Assembly (NCBI GenBank): GCA_021018815.1
Contig: JAITYX010000003.1
Location: forward strand, 12,729,501-12,793,500
Length of the DNA stretch: 64,000 nucleotides
From: Talinum fruticosum
Lineage: Eukaryota; Streptophyta; Magnoliopsida; Caryophyllales; Talinaceae
Direction: 5' to 3'
The first letter of the stretch is position 1; the number at the start of each line of letters is the position of its first letter. The position numbers and the translations under genes were made by a program. Under the pieces are notes generated by a model. That model was not told where the DNA came from, did no database searches, and saw only the letters and a program-made list of their open reading frames with translations. Of this stretch, positions 21,135-47,489 are shown piece by piece.

Positions 21135-22000
21135 TAAGAGCCTCGGAGTTAAATCATATGTAATTGTTATTATTGATGATTATTCACGATTTACTTGGGT
21201 GTGTTTTCTTAAGCACAAAAATGAAGCATTCAAGGAGTTCAAGCAAGCTCGCAGAAAAATTCAAGTTGAGTCTCGTACTCGGATCCGGAGAATTTGAACT
21301 CGTCCATGGAAGGGAGTTCGACTACTCAAAATTCTCGGAGTTTTGTGACAAGAATGGTATCTCTCACAACTTCTCAGCACTAAGAACTCCTCAACAAAAT
21401 GGAGTAGTGGAGAGAAAGAACAGAACTCTTGAAGAAATAGCTAGGACAATGATGATCGAGCACAACCTACCCTACTATTTCTGGGCCGAGGCAGTCAACA
21501 CAGCCAACTACACTTTGAATAGATGCCTCATCGGATCGATATCGAAGAAAACACCTTACAAGCTCTATAAAGGGAAGAAACCTAATATTTCCTATTTCAA
21601 ACCTTTCGGATGCAAATGCTTTGTTCATAACAATGGTAAGGACCACCTGACCAAGTTTGATGCTTGGTCGGATGAAGGTATTTTTCAAGGTTACTCATCT
21701 CATAGTAAAGCTTATCGCATTTTCAATAAGAGAACTAACAAAGTGGAAGAAAGTATCCACGTTGTGTTTGATGAGATTGAACAGAAAAACCCAATGAATC
21801 ATCATTCTCGGATCCGAAGCTCAGCAGAGATGATGACCTTGACAAGAGTGACCTTATCAGGAATCAAACCCAACCAGCTCAAAATGAAGTCACTCAAAAC
21901 GAAGTGACTCGTAATGAGACAACTCAAGAGGTCGTTCAGTAATGCTAAAGAACAATCTGATGAACAAGATCACTCGTAACAAGCTTCTGAAGATCAAACA
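21135..22000 (+). pseudogene. SIRE-like copia integrase core
   Basis: Contains VIVIIDDYSRFTWV (first catalytic Asp), a damaged second-Asp region around 21280-21310, and VVERKNRTLEEIARTM with the catalytic Glu near 21410. The conserved tail follows (PYYFWAEAVNTANYTLNR, FKPFGCKCFVHN). A frameshift near 21290 separates the first Asp from the rest. Downstream, 21900-22180 is the poorly conserved INT-RT linker. Confidence 0.88.
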
Positions 22001-30421: not shown

Positions 30422-33400
30422 AAGTCCACGGTGCAAAAGAATAACAAGGTGCGTGCCATAGGCCAGGACAAAGAATAAAATGATCCAAGGATTGCTCAAC
30501 CTAAGAAAACCGCGAAACGGGTCGGGCCTAGCCGTGGCCGGCGCCAACCACATATGAATTGTGCGGGGTTTTATGATTGCTCATGTACCAATTGCGGTGG
30601 GAATCGAAGAACTCCAGAAAAACACCTATAAATATGATGGACGTGCGGCGCAAAAGAAATACCAATTGATGGAAAGTGGACAGCCCTTGATCATGGACCG
30701 AGGACAAGTTATCAAAAGAGATCAAACATGCATGGAAATCAGCCAAAGACACTTGAATTTTTTATTATCATTTTTGATCCCGGAGGATGGGAAGTCAAGA
30801 GTGTGTTCTTTTTATGATTGTTCATAAATAATTATTTACCTAAGAGTCAAGAAGGAGAGCCAAGAAGAATCAGCTAGCAAACCTAAAATCCTCCATGTTA
30901 GAGCAAGGTGCATTTTGGCCATGACAAAACGTAAAGTAAGGTGTCTTTGCACATAAATAATTTGTATTTGATTCTGGTCGGTCCAAGGTCAATTACAACA
31001 TGCCTAGGCGCCTAAGGGGAGCATCCAAAGCAGCCCACATGAAGAGCATTCTAGAAGAATTAAGGAGGCTTGGCAAAGAGGAAACAAACCATAGCCACAT
31101 GTTCCCTAACCATCAAATACTTGGCTGAAATTTCTCCTAGCTTAACTTGGAGGAGGGGAAAGAATCTTGGCTAATTTTGTTTTGATTTTGCTTTAATTTT
31201 TAGCTATGTTTCAGCTTTGTAAAATGCCAATGTTAGGCATTATAAATTCAGCTAGCATAGCTCTTGTAAAAACAACTTTTGATGAATATATGAATTTGAG
31301 CTTTGCTCTTGTGAGATGGATTTCTCAACCCTTTAAATCCTCATTGCTGTATCCGAGCCTTGGCAAGCTTGGTGGTGTCCTTTGAGTCTCTTAAGCCCCG
31401 GTGGTGTTTCACGTATCCGGACCGTTTAAGAGTGCCCCTTGATTCGACTTGGTGGTGTTTACGTATCCAAGCCGTAATCCGGGTTCTATCCAGCGACTTC
31501 CATCAACCATATATCCCAATCCACGAATCATCTCTTTCCCAAATTTCACACACTTCATCTTACATGAGTTGAGTCCATTCCCTCCAAATCTCAGCTCAAT
31601 CCAAGAAGAACTCCATCCCCAGCACCAAAAACAAACAAAGAACCTCATTCTGGACAACCACCCAGTGAGGCTTTCTGTTTGCGTTTGGCTCAAGGTGATC
31701 CCGACCTTGGATGCTGCCCACATTTTACCACAACCTTTCCCAACCAGTTAACTACCTCTCCACCAAATTTCGTCCAAAACCAAGACCATTTACCCCTCCT
31801 TTCACCCTTTTCCCGTAACCGCACCTGCAGGTCCTATTCAGCCAGCTTGGTTTTCTTGCGGTTTTGCTTCCTTTTGCTTCCGCCTCCCACTACACATCAC
31901 CAATCATCAAAACCTTCATTCAATCGCACCATATCTCCTTCTTACATTCAAAAATAAAATCATGAATAACATGACTGAGTTAACCCGATGGATGCATGAG
32001 ATGGGTAATATGGATAGGTAGGGGTTAACCAATTATGGGCTGAATGTATTATTCGAGCATTTGCCAGTGAAGATTTATTAGCCTTTCTTAAGGGCTGTTA
32101 TGGCCTACTAGGATTGTCACCACCAAGTCTTTAGGTTCGGGGATAAGGAACTATGCCCCTGCGTGAAGAATTCGATGCCATACTAAGCGGTTTTAGGCGA
32201 ACAAAACCGGCTATTCCCAAATCTTCGGAAAACCTCCACGAGAAATACAAATACTTATTGAAATTGAGTAATAAGAATCTAGGGTGGATTCTTATTGGGA
32301 ACCGAGTGACCTTGACCAATCCGATGAATCACTACTTGCGAGCATGTATGCCTATGTGGATCCCATTATCATCCCGAGAAGGCGAGCCATTATCACTTAC
32401 ATGATCGGTGGATTCCTCGCTAGTGGGGGCCACAAGGACTTGGCACCGAGTGGCTCTACTAAGCCTAGTGGAACAGCTTAGAGAATTATTGTTCCCTAAC
32501 ACCACTAATAGTAGTGAAATAATAATTGGCTTAGATCGAGTTGAAGCCAACGCCAAACAGAATTTCCGTGGTAGCCCCTCTTATTACAAGTAAGCATAAA
32601 ACAACAAACGGAAGCAAGCAAACAAGCGTAAACCAGTCAATCGGTGCTCGCTGGAGGCCGAGGAGCCTCCGGTTTACACCGAAAACTTAACTTTCGTTCT
32701 CGCCTCTTTTGTCGCTATTTATTATTATTCGATTTTACTCTGTTGGGCCTAAAAAGTTAGACTTTGACCATGCAGGACACTAATATTTGATTTTGTATCC
32801 GTGATGTGCGGATTTGGTTAATGGAACATCTATGGCTTATTGATACTCCTCCGAAGTTGGATACATACCTAGCGACTCATTTCTACCGCGAAAATGAAAA
32901 CCGGTGGTAGCCTATTACCTTGCCTCCCGATGGGAAGAGTATCTTAGAAATCACATTGAAGATCTCCTATGGTATGTTAAACACTCGGATGGTGTCCCAG
33001 TTTAAAGCGCATACTTCACAAGCACCTATACATACGTCTACAAGGCTTAGAGGAGAGCACGTATTACTTCCCTAGTCGTGGGTTGCGGTGAATGGGTAGA
33101 GAATAAGTAATACCTCTATGGATTGTATCCGGCCCACAACCTTTGACTTGTTCGAAGGCATGGTAGCTCCAAACGGACCAAGTCGTGGCTCGAATACTGG
33201 AAAGGTCTACCGAAACTACCGACTCCTATAGACTTAGTGACACCAAACGAAGTTACGAACACTCATTGTTTCACCCTATTATCTAAAGTGGATAATAGAA
33301 ATAGATCCCGAATGATAAAAGGCACCGAGACTCGGAGAGATGAATCCTGCATAAGTCGTCCCTACTGCTACCCCTCTCGCAAATTTGTGAAATAAACCCT

Positions 33401-42364: not shown

Positions 42365-42978
42365 GGTCGTGATGGAGAGTGGGCAGCCTTCTGTTTTGAG
42401 CTGTGTGACATTCATGTTAAGAAGCTTTGTATGTTTAGTGTTCAGCCGGAAATGTTTGCTTACTCCATGATCAAGGGAAGGGCTCAAAATACAAGCGCTT
42501 GATGTTAGTGGATCCCGGGGATGATGGGTCTCAAAATCATTAAGTTCTTATGATTTTGTTTATAAATAATTGATTACCAATTTAGTTGAGAAGATTAGTG
42601 AAAGTAGCCACCTAAAATCTCCATGGTCAAGCAAGAAGGTTTGTTCTAATCAAGGCCGGGAATGTTGCTATGTTATGCTCATGGTACATAAATAAGTTGA
42701 TGCTTAAAACATGGTCGGTCCATGAAGATGCCTTAGCCGAATGATGAGCTACAAAAGAAGATGATGACTAAGCATTCTAGAAGCATCAAGAATCAAAGAG
42801 CTTGGAGAAGGGGAAAACAAGCCATAGCCACATGTTCCCAATTTTGGAATACTTGGCTAGAATTCACCCTAGCTTGGCTTGGAGGAAGGGAAAGGAATAT
42901 TGTTAGTTAGCATTTTATTTTTGCTTTATTTTCAGCTTGAATTCGGTTATGCTTTTCAGCTTGAATTTGGTTTTGTAA

Positions 42979-42997
42979 AATGCCTAAGCAAGGCATT
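42979..42997 (+). promoter_or_regulatory. Inverted repeat abutting the TATA box
   Basis: AATGCC and GGCATT arms (42979-42984, 42992-42997) with a 7-base spacer lie directly against TATATAT. Other copies keep the pairing with different sequence: AATGCT/AGCATT in the LTR at 57214. It could be a cruciform, a factor-binding palindrome or chance; retained complementarity argues against chance. Confidence 0.5.
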
Positions 42998-43003
42998 ATA
43001 TAT
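42997..43003 (+). promoter_or_regulatory. TATA box of the TRG LTR
   Basis: GGCATTATATATTCAGC; TATAAAT in several solo copies. Position about 650 bases upstream of the PBS. Start-site position is inferred only. Confidence 0.65.
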
Positions 43004-43100
43004 TCAGCTCATGTGCTTCATTGTAAAACACCTTTGATGAATATATTTGAGTTTAAACTCTTGAGCTGGATTGCTCGTTTTTGAATCCTCAAAGCTGTAT

Positions 43101-43228
43101 CCGTGCTTGGCATCACGGTGGTGTTCTTTGAGTCTCTTGAGTCCCGGTGGTGTTGCTGTATCCGGACCACTTAAGAGCGCCCCTTGATTCACTCGGTGGT
43201 GTTGCTCGTATCCGAGCCCGAGTCAAGG
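43101..43228 (+). other. Three-hairpin array in the R-U5 leader, conserved by covariation
   Basis: Hairpin 1: CCGTG (43101-43105) with CACGG (43114-43118). Hairpin 2: CTCTTGAGTCCCGG (43134-43147) with CCGGACCACTTAAGAG (43162-43177), loop TGGTGTTGCTGTAT. Hairpin 3: CCTTGATTCACTCGG (43182-43196) with CCGAGCCCGAGTCAAGG (43212-43228), loop TGGTGTTGCTCGTAT. The same array is in ten other LTRs of the window. Stems change on both arms together while the loops stay nearly constant. It is likely transcribed, being downstream of the TATA box. Role unknown: packaging, dimerisation or translation control are possibilities. Confidence 0.75.
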
Positions 43229-43652
43229 TTCTATCCCTCACTTTGCCGCTCCATAACTCACAATTCCCTCAGCCATTTCACTCCAAATTTTAACCACAAC
43301 CCTTCCAGCAAGTCTACTTCCATCCCTCCAATTTTCAGCTCCATCCAAGAAACCCTCCGTCCTCCACCCTTGATCCAAACAGAAGGTGTCAGCCTGAACA
43401 TCCGATCCAGTGCTTGCTCATTTCAGGCGTGCAGATCAAGGTCTTCCCTAACTCCAAAATTTCCCAAATTTTACCACAATCAACCTTCACCTGTTACCTT
43501 CCTTCCCACCAATTTTTAGCTAAATCCAAGAACCTTTACCCCTCCATTTCCCCAATCTGCCAAGATTGCGCACGCAGTGCCGCATTCTGGCCGGTTGTGC
43601 TTCTTGCGGTTTTCTCTACCTTTTCTTTGCTTCCGCCACTACACATCATTTT

Positions 43653-43664
43653 TGGTATCAGAGC
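43653..43664 (+). other. Primer binding site, tRNA-iMet
   Basis: TGGTATCAGAGC, four bases after the LTR end. It is the standard initiator-Met primer site of plant gypsy and copia elements. Confidence 0.93.
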
Positions 43665-43772
43665 AAGTTCTAAACCTTGGGTGATTGTGTTCATTCCCAC
43701 AAAAATCAAAAATTAAAAAAAAAAAAAAAGAGCAAAATCCAAAAAAATAGCCAGCCACAAAATTGCCCGACC

Positions 43773-44747
43773 ATGAGTGCAAGTATGACACTAGAAGAGA
43801 GGTTTGAAATGCTCATGAAGGAGAATGAGTACCTCCGAAAGCAGCTAGGACGTGACATGAAGGCTAAGCGTGACCAGCTAAGGAGTGAATCACCTCCTAT
43901 ATGCTCTAATCCCAGCCTACATGAAGATGATGAGGAGAACAACCCTTTTGCCTCCACGGATAGTGAAAGGCAATCAAGAAGAAGTTCTAGATGGTCCAAA
44001 TCACACTACCAAGATTTCAAAGTTGAGATTCCGGAATTTGAAGGGAGATTGCATCCGGATGAATTCCTTGATTGGTTGAGGACCGTGGAAAGAATTTTTG
44101 ATTACAAGGAGGTACCAAACGAGAAGAAGGTGAAGCTTGTTGCACTCAAGCTTAGAGGCTTTGCTTCCACTTGGTGGGAAAACTTGAAGCACAAACGTGT
44201 GAGAGACAAAAAGCCTAAAATCAAAAGTTGGGAGAAAATGAGAGCTAAGCTCAAGGCTCGTTTTCTACCACCTACTTATGTCCAAGATAGTTTTCTCCAA
44301 CTCTATACTCTTCAACAAGGCAATATGAGTGTAGAAGAATACACTAGAGAGTTTGAGAAATTGTTGATCAAATGTGATTTGCAAGAAAATGAGGACCAAA
44401 CAATTGTGAGGTACTTAGGCGGTTTGGATGCTAAGTATGCTCAAATTGTGGAGCTACAACATTTTACCACATTTGATGAGGTGTGTCACTTGGCACACAA
44501 GGTGGAGCAACAAAAGAAAAGTCGGTTTGCCAAAAAGGAAGTGCCTAAAACTTTTCCCTCTCAAAGAAGCCAACCCTTCTACAAGGGAGTCCCCAACCTT
44601 CACCTCAAACAACTCCAAATCCCACAAAGCAACCCGTTCAACCTCCAAACCCACCCAAGGCTTTGCCAACTCCAAGTGACCCGAGAAGGTGTTTTAAATG
44701 CCATGGTTTTCGACACATTGCCGTGGAATGTCCAAACCGTAGGGTGA
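43773..44747 (+). CDS. gag: TRG Gag (capsid), frameshifted near its C-terminus
   Basis: Gag of the non-autonomous element, expected to form cytoplasmic virus-like particles. I take the ATG at 43773 (MSASMTLEERFEM) because a homologous start exists at 587 and upstream codons are A-rich leader. Residues about 5-25 form a coiled coil. The capsid domain (PF03732 type) runs from EIPEFEGRLHPDEFLDWL to about HFTTFDEVCHLAHKVEQQ. Near 44585 the frame is lost by one base, so the last 50 or so residues before the stop at 44747 are out of frame. The natural continuation, including the zinc knuckle, lies in the overlapping frame. This is one indel away from an open gag-PR. Confidence 0.85.
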   Translation: MSASMTLEERFEMLMKENEYLRKQLGRDMKAKRDQLRSESPPICSNPSLHEDDEENNPFASTDSERQSRRSSRWSKSHYQDFKVEIPEFEGRLHPDEFLDWLRTVERIFDYKEVPNEKKVKLVALKLRGFASTWWENLKHKRVRDKKPKIKSWEKMRAKLKARFLPPTYVQDSFLQLYTLQQGNMSVEEYTREFEKLLIKCDLQENEDQTIVRYLGGLDAKYAQIVELQHFTTFDEVCHLAHKVEQQKKSRFAKKEVPKTFPSQRSQPFYKGVPNLHLKQLQIPQSNPFNLQTHPRLCQLQVTREGVLNAMVFDTLPWNVQTVG

Positions 44748-45544
44748 TGGCTTTGGTTGAGTACCAAGAGCCTTTAATGGATGAGCATGAAACCGAGAAG
44801 GAGCTACTCTTGCTAGATGAGGTAGAGGAAGTGGTAGAAGAGGCGGATGAAGGAGAAATGTTGGTGATAAGAAGGACCTTAAGCGGAATCAAGGATCCAA
44901 GTGAGGAGCAACGTGAAACCATTTTTCACACAAGGGGCACGGTCCAAAACAAAGTGTGTTCCATTATCATTGATGGAGGTAGTTGTGCTAATGTGGCTGC
45001 CTCTATGATGGTAGACAAGCTTGGACTTCATGCTTCGGTCCATCCCCACCCTTACAATGTGCAATGGCTCAACCAAGGTAAAGGACTTCAAGTTAATTCT
45101 CGTTGTCTTCTTTCATTTAGTATTGGTAAGCACTATCATGATGAGTTATGGTGTGATGTAATTCCTATGGATGCTTGCCATATATTACTTGGGAGACCTT
45201 GGCTATATGACCGAAGGGTGACACATGATGGTTTCAAGAATACCTACACCTTCACCAAGGATGGAAAGAAAATCACATTAGCCCCCTTGCCTCCTAGCCA
45301 ATACAAACCGAAGCCACAAAACTCTTCCTCCCAAAATGACCTTTTGTTTGTGCTTAAGGAACCTCTCCTCAAAGACGAGCAAAAAGAGTTTGAGCCTTAC
45401 CACAATCACATCCGTTCATTCCCATACACAGCTGAGAAGTTACAAAAAAATTCCACCCTCTCTCCACCATTTTTCATGACAAGTTCAGCTTTGTTCCCCC
45501 ACATAAAATTCCTTTCCATTCACCACCACAAAGACATTTCCTAA
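44590..45544 (+). CDS. TRG nucleocapsid zinc knuckle and aspartic protease
   Basis: Open frame overlapping the end of gag. Proline-rich linker, then a CCHC knuckle CFKCHGFRHIAVEC (44690-44731, CX2CX4HX4C intact), an acidic stretch (EVEEVVEEADEGEM), and a retropepsin-like domain with IIIDGGSCANVAA (catalytic Asp at 44972-44974) and the flap/C-terminal motif HILLGRPWLYDRRVTHDG. It has no ATG of its own at the frame start, so it was probably one ORF with gag. The stop at 45544 is followed by about 400 bases of relic sequence and no RT. Confidence 0.85.
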
Positions 45545-45930
45545 TCCAAAAATCCTTGTCCCAAGAGCCATTTGTTTTACCCGGACAGAGTATGATTTGG
45601 ATCCCAATGGTGATGATTTATGGGTAGCCGACCGGGAAGAGCAAACGAGAAAATCCATGGGCAGAATTAATACCAAAGGAAGTTGTGTATCTTCCTCAAT
45701 GTTTGCGGTTTGATGTGCCTAATGAGGACCGAGGTAGCCCCTACATCATGAGCATACTCGGAGAACATCCGGGCTGGCTGCATGGGCGAGGCCTGTCTCC
45801 ACAATTAACCGTCTGCTCGGGCATACAAGGAAACTCCATTTTTGTTCTCAACATAAGCTCCAACATGGTCAGATTTTTTCACACCCGGAGCATGTTATTT
45901 GTGCGAATTTGAGGGCAAATTCTCTCCTAC
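45545..45930 (+). other. Post-protease relic of the TRG element
   Basis: Short coding-like pieces (TEYDLDPNGDDLWVADREEQ near 45590) and, just before the PPT, LRANSLLQGEN, which looks like the extreme C-terminus of a chromovirus pol. No RT, RNase H or integrase motif is present. It marks the scar of a large internal deletion. Confidence 0.6.
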
Positions 45931-45940
45931 AAGGGGAGAA
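45931..45940 (+). other. Polypurine tract of the TRG element
   Basis: AAGGGGAGAA immediately before the 3' LTR at 45941. Confidence 0.9.
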
Positions 45941-47219
45941 TGATGGAGAGTGGGCAGCCTTCTGTTTTGAGCTGTGTGACATTCATGTTAAGAAGCTTTG
46001 TATGTTTAGTGTTCAGCCGGAAATGTTTGCTTTCTCCATGATCAAGGGAAGGGCTCAAAATACAAGCGCTTGATGTTAGTGGATCCCGGGGATGATGGGT
46101 CTCAAAATCATTAAGTTCTTATGATTTTGTTTATAAATAATTGATTACCAATTTAGTTGAGAAGATTAGTGAAAGTAGCCACCTAAAATCTCCATGGTCA
46201 AGCAAGAAGGTTTGTTCTAATCAAGGCCGGGAATGTTGCTATGTTATGCTCATGGTACATAAATAAGTTGATGCTTAAAACATGGTCGGTCCATGAAGAT
46301 GCCTTAGCCGAATGATGAGCTACAAAAGAAGATGATGACTAAGCATTCTAGAAGCATCAAGAATCAAAGAGCTTGGAGAAGGGGAAAACAAGCCATAGCC
46401 ACATGTTCCCAATTTTGGAATACTTGGCTAGAATTCACCCTAGCTTGGCTTGGAGGAAGGGAAAGGAATATTGTTAGTTAGCATTTTATTTTTGCTTTAT
46501 TTTCAGCTTGAATTCGGTTATGCTTTTCAGCTTGAATTTGGTTTTGTAAAATGCCTAAGCAAGGCATTATATATTCAGCTCATGTGCTTCATTGTAAAAC
46601 ACCTTTGATGAATATATTTGAGTTTAAACTCTTGAGTCTGGATTGCTCGTTTTTGAATCCTCAAAGCTGTATCCGTGCTTGGCATCACGGTGGTGTTCTT
46701 TGAGTCTCTTGAGTCCCGGTGGTGTTGCTGTATCCGGACCACTTAAGAGCGCCCCTTGATTCACTCGGTGGTGTTGCTTGTATCCGAGCCCGAGTCAAGG
46801 TTCTATCCCTCACTTTGCCGCTCCATAACTTACAATTCCCTCAGCCATTTCACTCCAAATTTTAACCACAACCCTTCCAGCAAGTCTAATTCCATCCCTC
46901 CAATTTTCAGCTCCATCCAAGAAACCCTCCGTCCTCCACCCTTGATCCAAACAGAAGGTGTCAGCCTGAACATCCAGTCCAGTGCTTGCTCATTTCAGGC
47001 ATGCAGATCAAGGTCTTCCCTAACTCCAAAATTTCCCAAATTTTACCACAATCAACCTTCACCTGTTACCTTCCTTCCCACCAATTTTTAGCTAAATCCA
47101 AGAACCTTTACCCCTCCATTTCCCCAATCTGCCAAGATTGCGCACGCAGGCTGCATTCTGGCCGGTTGTGCTTCTTGCGGTTTTCTCTACTTTTTCTTTG
47201 CTTCCGCCACTACACATCA
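45941..47219 (+). repeat. 3' LTR of the complete TRG element
   Basis: 1279 bp, same ends as the 5' LTR. Differences noted by eye include positions equivalent to 42471 (A/T), an added T in CTTGAGTCTGG near 46636, C/T near 46779, C/A near 46888 and a short indel near 47150. Hairpin array at 46673-46800. Confidence 0.97.
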
Positions 47220-47224
47220 GGTCG

Positions 47225-47489
47225 AGGGTTCTTTTTGCTTCTGAAGACTTTTAACTATAATTGAATGAAAGAACCATCATCATATATGCATTTTTTAGGA
47301 CGGTTCTTTTAGAGAATTGTAGTTAAAAGTGGAATTTCCACCTTTCACGACTGGTTCTTTTAGTGAACTGTCATCATATATGCATTAAAAACCTCTTTTT
47401 TAAAAAAATGCCACCACATAAGTTTTGTCAACAGATTTTTTTATAACCGTCGTCAAAGATCCGTCGTTAAAAGTCGTTTCGTAGTAGTG
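47225..47489 (-). mobile_element. CACTA transposon terminus and subterminal repeats
   Basis: On the minus strand the sequence begins CACTACTACGAAACGAC at 47489 and is followed by repeated ACGACGG-type motifs (47450-47470) and related GAACCGTC-like units, as in CACTA subterminal regions. It shares orientation with the coding remnant at 40135-41520, and the TRG element sits between them. The opposite terminus is not found; it was probably lost at the junction near 38895-40135. Confidence 0.6.

Follow-up and report, generated by a model that had tools for sequence, protein, structure and literature searches.

The window analysed here, 64,000 nucleotides of Talinum fruticosum DNA (contig JAITYX010000003.1), contains a 4.85-kb long terminal repeat (LTR) element at 42370-47219, the 5' LTR of which carries an array of hairpins just past a TATA box. 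Judging from the sequence, this array is very probably (at about 0.93) a selected structure of the sense-strand RNA; the RNA shape would be under selection because the stems stay paired despite changes of their letters while the exposed loops hardly vary. A preliminary description had noted three consecutive hairpins in eleven LTR copies, and eleven copies with the quoted stems are indeed found in the window. Its copy names seem to correspond to LTR starts; the block at 31338, for example, is what it calls the "30667 copy". The array exceeds the block described at that time in that one further covarying hairpin, Hb, lies upstream of it. The parts of the array and of the element given below with coordinates of the window are on the forward (+) strand.

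Covariation in the hairpin array

Hairpins 1, 2 and 3 each consist of an outer and an inner helix. Hairpin 1 spans 43088-43132, with an outer helix at 43088-43091/43129-43132 and a covarying inner helix at 43101-43105/43114-43118. Hairpin 2 (43134-43177) is formed by an outer helix at 43134-43142/43169-43177 and the inner CCGG helix at 43144-43147/43162-43165, and hairpin 3 (43182-43228) by helices at 43182-43190/43220-43228 and 43192-43196/43212-43216. Upstream, Hb occupies 43062-43077 and presents the loop TGGATT on stems such as GAGC/GCTC, GAGA/TCTC and CGAGA/TCTCG; on recount, the loop is present in 64 of the 68 copies with upstream sequence, and at least four flanking pairs are formed in 58 of the 68. 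Ha, GAGTTTAAACTC at 43049-43060 (GAGC-TTT-GCTC or GAGTGTTATACTC in other copies), is probably an additional hairpin of the array upstream of Hb. It has a palindromic appearance in most copies, as read by eye, since the blind alignment is poor in that region. One divergent copy (L185:1-65) apparently has two tandem TGGATT hairpins in place of Ha and Hb.

All copies come from one genome (620 Mb, 264 contigs). The eleven window copies were located by nhmmer and aligned with MAFFT without the use of structure. Larger sets were assembled in steps: 60 copies remain of 70 found, after removal of two truncated (L012_7267, L012_5993) and two distant (L024, L023) copies and six duplicates; 77 copies include 18 of 20 new blocks (17 distinct; L174, which is cut, and the partial L172 were left out); and 86 copies include nine of ten further blocks (L181 was left out as a chance word match). 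A separate set of 41 extended sequences was hand-picked from the window and the L001-L025 copies, including L024 and L023.

Without a given structure, RNAalifold folds the eleven window copies into three hairpins of 35 pairs, 10 of which are changed on both sides. The consensus energy is -78.8, compared with -55.0 +/- 4.6 in 100 column shuffles (best -67.8). Column pairs were also ranked by a G statistic with average product correction, with no structure supplied. Among the 11,325 column pairs, the seven highest-ranked in the 60 copies are all predicted pairs; in the 86 copies this holds for the top eight, four of which lie in hairpin 2 and two each in hairpins 1 and 3, and ranks 9-16 are not predicted pairs. 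The predicted pairs and the ranking are not fully independent, because the pair list was derived from 11 of the same sequences. E-values were obtained from null alignments simulated on the tree with equal changes per column, and with the test confined to the 35 predicted pairs, the top eight pairs of the 86 copies all reach E<=0.011.

The 41 extended sequences allow two-sided changes to be counted directly. Here 95.0% of the cells are paired, compared with 86.7 +/- 0.5 after shuffling, and 168 cells carry a two-sided change, compared with 55 +/- 8, a number reached in none of 500 shuffles. When the partners are slid by one column, the paired cells fall from 95% to 47-51%, and the signal is gone at shifts of one to three columns. 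The number of further pair types is not clearly above shuffling (50 of 500 as high). Seven of the nine pairs in the outer helix of hairpin 2 and four of the five pairs of Hb change on both sides, and blind RNAalifold on this set recovers Hb, with two-sided change at 17 of 37 pairs overall. By parsimony, 22 double changes from one Watson-Crick pair to another are counted, against a mean of 8.9 and a maximum of 18 in 300 re-deals of the partners.

The outer helix of hairpin 1 counts against the fold. It shows no two-sided change in the 41 sequences, is not recovered from them by blind RNAalifold, and its far part is unpaired in about half of the copies, where CATTG stands opposite CTTTG or CTGTG. 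In the genome-wide sample of copies, covarying pairs are present in all three hairpins, in hairpin 1 only in the inner helix.

The most divergent copies retain the fold with largely different letters. L180, L182, L018_1642 and L185, with 62-71% identity to the reference, form 24, 27, 27 and 30 of the 35 pairs, respectively, 7-9 of which are changed on both sides; these pair numbers are not reached in 2000 re-deals. In L180, twelve consecutive pairs are possible by eye in hairpin 2 (TAATCTAGCTAG / CTGGTTAGATTA), and hairpin 3 may pair as CTAAGTT..CAAGG / CCTTG..AACTTAG (also by eye); the stem letters of both hairpins are largely unlike the reference, and the loops are nearly identical to it. 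Another copy, L006:1439-1590, is a mosaic with hairpin 1 from one subfamily and hairpin 2 from another, which suggests recombination between subfamilies.

A two-strand motif in three hairpins

The conserved letters form a motif of two facing strands, A (GGUGGUGU) and B (GUAUCC), which occurs three times, in hairpins 1-3. Hairpins 2 and 3 read GG-A-turn-B-CC, where a short apical turn connects A (43148-43154 and 43197-43203) with B (43156-43161 in hairpin 2; core 43208-43211 in hairpin 3). In hairpin 1 the order is B-CC-hairpin-GG-A: strand B (CTGTAT-CC, 43095-43102) is on the 5' side and strand A (GG-TGGTGTT, 43117-43125) on the 3' side, the outer helix closes the structure, and A/B is an internal loop capped at its other end. 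In the predicted fold, hairpin 1 is therefore circularly permuted relative to hairpins 2 and 3, with A and B connected at opposite ends. This arrangement suggests that the facing pair, rather than a linear word, is the conserved feature.

In the 77 copies, each position of TGGTGTT and of the GTAT core is 97-100% conserved, with the single exception of hairpin 1, where the final letter of loop A reaches 73%, and CTGTAT of hairpin 1 is conserved at 96-100%. Conservation is lower directly before the GTAT core, at 79% in hairpin 2 and at 70% and 39% in hairpin 3. Mean conservation is 84% in the paired columns and 71% in the free loop of hairpin 1. The earlier statement that the loops hardly change next to variable stems thus agrees with these values except at that single position. 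The C3 stretches, and the blocks from elsewhere than the window, were chosen because they match a loop word exactly or resemble one of the window copies, and the loop conservation there, that of loop 2 most of all, is therefore somewhat overstated. Genome-wide, GGTGGTGTT-gap-GTATCC is counted 5,724 times, compared with 12 for the reversed control.

The motif has no counterpart in the collections searched. Rfam gives no match at the gathering score in the window and none at E<=5 over 43040-43270, hammerhead and 5S families included. A 22-base hairpin word is found in none of the contigs of a viral contig collection. A looser word was also tried there: the covariance model R1, run on 80 of 111 stretches, matched 20 times at E<=1, with a 28-position fragment ranked first (E 0.079), and these matches were taken as chance. 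Searches of the open-licence PMC literature gave no account of such a structure in the titles and abstract openings returned, and those for covariation in plant LTR elements gave no paper.

Leader position, strand and putative role

A TATA box (TATATAT) lies at 42997-43003. Of the 49 copies for which 150 nucleotides (nt) or more of upstream sequence are available, 46 have a TATA-like word 89-115 nt upstream of the block start, and in 45 of the 49 the distance is 89-102 nt, which bears out the stated distance of about 0.1 kb. No ATG is present between 43040 and the AUG of gag at 43773. From 43040 to the LTR end, the nine LTR copies contain 0-4 ATGs on the sense strand, compared with means of 5.9-7.8 after dinucleotide shuffling, and 10-14 on the antisense strand; the fraction of shuffles with as few is at most 0.023 in seven of the nine copies and 0.09 and 0.10 in the other two. 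Along the LTR, the sense-strand energy minimum coincides with the block (-78.4). The remaining LTR leader (43229-43648) is AUG-poor and has little sense-strand structure; this part folds better on the antisense strand. The TATA box and the depletion of AUG point to a position in the RNA 5' leader and, together with the covariation, the loops and the wobble pairs, agree with the selected leader structure that the preliminary description had proposed.

In the 60 copies, the 35-pair structure contains 135 G-U against 20 A-C pairs. This count was dropped as a proof of strand, as a control showed a bias from the choice of structure, and the test was moved to pairs selected blind to the strand. In the eight top pairs so selected, the ratio of G-U to A-C is 48:2; 30 of the 48 are at the pair 43103-43116, and the remainder is 18:2. 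The wobble pairs thus support the sense strand. The fold energies in the sense and antisense directions are -72.2 and -48.9 for the 60 copies, and -79.3 and -74.8, a small gap, for the nine window LTRs.

The array is retained in stretches that have lost gag. In the L013 and L018 stretches no gag is present and only a protease-like frame is left, while the array copies L018_4348 and L018_7896 form 34 of 35 pairs at 71-72% identity. The long open frames with the protease-like stretch in these members of the same LTR family (L018:5010-6911 and L013:3373-5375; 634 codons from stop to stop in L018) have no Pfam match. We infer that these gag-less copies were mobilised in trans, and retention of the array where gag is missing leans toward a role in this process.

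A second, old LTR family (L024, L023) may also keep the layout of the array. It has the primer-binding-like words TGGTATTAGAGC and TGGTATCAAAGC, a TATAAAA box in L024, and, at the position of Hb, AAGTTTG-TGGATT-CAAACTT (TAAACTT in L023). The model R1, which has 50 matches at E<=5 in the window and 28 loci and was built without this family, finds L024 at E 1.6e-4 and L023 at E 0.078. In the blind alignment, L024 forms 20 of 35 pairs (reached by 0.012 of re-deals) and L023 16 of 35 (0.204). A DNA search gave no more relatives of L018_1642 or L024, and the L024 loop word has a single exact match in the genome.

Taken together, compensatory change maintains Hb, the inner helix of hairpin 1, and hairpins 2 and 3, with conserved loops, on the sense strand just past the TATA box; the array is very probably a structured RNA domain at the start of the 5' leader in this LTR retrotransposon lineage. 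In the proposed mechanism, a protein would dock in a multivalent way on the three copies of the motif, the likeliest candidate being Gag of the element itself with its capsid and zinc knuckle. The RNA would thereby enter particles in cis, and copies that lack gag or pol would be carried in trans. Gag is preferred because gag-less stretches retain the array, because of its place in the leader and its loop conserved three times over, and because BARE2 RNA in BARE1 particles is a precedent; three equal, conserved loops would suit a multimeric protein. Gag-mediated encapsidation is accordingly put forward tentatively as the putative main role, with a likelihood somewhat short of even. The wider proposal, that an undescribed RNA module (GGUGGUGU / GUAUCC, three times), rewritten in the second family, is the code by which Gag particles sort genomes of gag-bearing and gag-less copies, is possible but should be regarded with a little more reserve.

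Several results weigh against the structural and functional parts of this interpretation. In the search over all column pairs, only the top pair of the 86 copies falls below E 0.05 (0.024), ranks 2-8 having E 0.078-3.4, and two pairs do so in the 60 copies against the tree null. The counts of two-sided cells and of parsimony events may be inflated, because subfamilies seem to exchange hairpins, as in L006. Relative to shuffled columns, the region 42925-43079, part of which is Ha and Hb, stands out more strongly (z -8.1) than the block (z -5.3), although the energy is lowest at the block. The evidence from the second family is weak, and no pol-bearing partner that shares the leader is present among the 10 scanned open reading frames (ORFs) of at least 250 codons. 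Finally, L018 has lost gag, but its frame of 634 codons is still open, and translation may thus be of continued importance to gag-less copies.

Control of translation is the alternative that survives best, although we consider it somewhat unlikely. The hairpins would recruit or re-route ribosomes, in a manner like a shunt or an internal ribosome entry site (IRES), on the long leader up to the gag AUG, which is consistent with the ATG-free stretch 43040-43773, the sense-strand depletion in the nine LTR copies and the little structure downstream of the array. However, ordinary scanning alone accounts for the depletion, and the array is retained in stretches without gag. Moreover, three stable hairpins close to the cap would impede scanning.

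Docking of a host protein for nuclear export or RNA stability appears unlikely. Its purpose would resemble that of the structured leader of cauliflower mosaic virus (CaMV) or of the transport elements of mouse retroelements. A dimeric adaptor could be accommodated by loops that are repeated and rotated, and PMC12786077 describes how the CaMV leader recruits TREX; it leaves the occurrence of CAR-like motifs in plant LTR elements unclear. On the other side, no Rfam family matches the array.

Dimerisation or the geometry of reverse transcription, in which the loops would touch either another copy of the genome or the region of the primer-binding site, seems quite improbable. The distance from the block end to the primer-binding site is constant (409-412 nt) in nine main-family copies, but it is 260 and 135 to the primer-binding-like words of the second family. 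By eye, neither loop A nor loop B can form Watson-Crick pairs with itself or with the other, and no self-complementary apical loop of the dimer-initiation type is seen in TGGTGTT-n-CTGTAT or TGGATT; Ha is palindromic over its full length in some copies only. A long-range contact between loop A and the word AACACC around 43025 was rejected, as AACACC is not kept at that place in L018 or L024.

An origin of the two-sided changes without RNA selection, from DNA palindromes serving as protein sites or from hairpin-templated correction during reverse transcription, is very improbable: quasi-palindromes are known to mutate by templated correction, structures predicted on the sense strand have more G-U than A-C in many LTR stretches, which biases that count, and the nine LTR copies fold only slightly better on the sense strand, but correction would erase G-U and A-C equally and leaves the near-invariant loops unexplained, and the strand-blind ratio, with or without the pair 43103-43116, and the far better sense fold of the 60 copies speak against it.

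If the module is indeed such a sorting code, plant Ty3-type elements would have a packaging signal that is defined by sequence and shared across the family. New here are Hb (and probably Ha), the circular permutation, the retention in gag-less stretches, the placement in the leader and, on weak evidence, a second LTR family that may keep the layout. LTR retrotransposons can form most of a plant genome, according to the review PMC12786077; selection of their own RNA and transport of gag-less or pol-less copies seem little studied, and the terms "psi", "IRES" and "stem-loop" do not occur in that review. A leader defined by covariation, with sharply defined loops, offers concrete RNA targets and a handle for similar leaders in other plants.

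The element and comparison with known systems

The 5' LTR (42370-43648, 1279 bp, TG..CA borders) is 99.1% identical to the 3' LTR (45941-47219), before which a purine-rich tract, AAGGGGAGAA, is present. The primer-binding site TGGTATCAGAGC (43653-43664) is presumably of the initiator tRNA-Met type. The gag ORF, from its first ATG, spans 43773-44744 and matches Retrotrans_gag (1.1e-20) and Ty3_capsid (2.3e-14) in Pfam. Its named relatives, among 120 listed of 196 matches, are from flowering plants (Cuscuta, Artemisia, Helianthus, Dioscorea, Theobroma, Melastoma). An overlapping ORF (44663-45544) has zinc-knuckle-like and protease-like stretches by eye and gives no match in a Pfam scan. The internal space is too small for pol, and no pol-like frame is seen by eye among the five ORFs of at least 100 amino acids in 42800-47300, two of which were scanned with Pfam. 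Elsewhere, the window contains a Copia-type integrase-like frame, recognised by eye from its translation, in an LTR-rich stretch (21164-21907). At C1:8949224-8977105 of the genome, nine copies of the loop word are spaced about 3,485 bp apart, which suggests a head-to-tail array of units of one LTR plus internal part.

Retroviral packaging signals consist of several hairpins in the 5' leader with exposed G-rich loops that are recognised by Gag. The present array resembles them as a conserved structure in what the TATA and AUG evidence indicates to be a leader. It differs in that one two-strand motif is used three times, once circularly permuted, and recognition by Gag is putative.

The element at 42370-47219 combines paired LTRs, a primer-binding site and a polypurine tract with gag and lacks reverse transcriptase, RNase H and integrase, as the TR-GAG elements of PMC6022998 do, which bears out for this copy the earlier assignment to a non-autonomous, TR-GAG-like type. 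The available text of that paper mentions no leader RNA structure, and several stretches here are wholly without gag. The CaMV leader and the mouse elements RTE and MTE are likewise folded cis-acting RNAs in reverse-transcribing elements, and by the description available in PMC12786077 their size and layout differ from those of the array. Cassandra elements also have an RNA of known fold within a plant LTR, namely 5S RNA, whereas the array is without any Rfam match, 5S included. BARE1 and BARE2 of barley offer a precedent: the accessible part of PMC3735527 reports that the RNA of gag-less BARE2 is packed into BARE1 particles, and invokes conserved dimerisation and packaging signals. The BARE elements belong to a different superfamily, Copia, and that part of the paper gives no structure of the present design; the likeness lies in gag-less copies, which in BARE use the particles of another element and here would likewise have been carried in trans.
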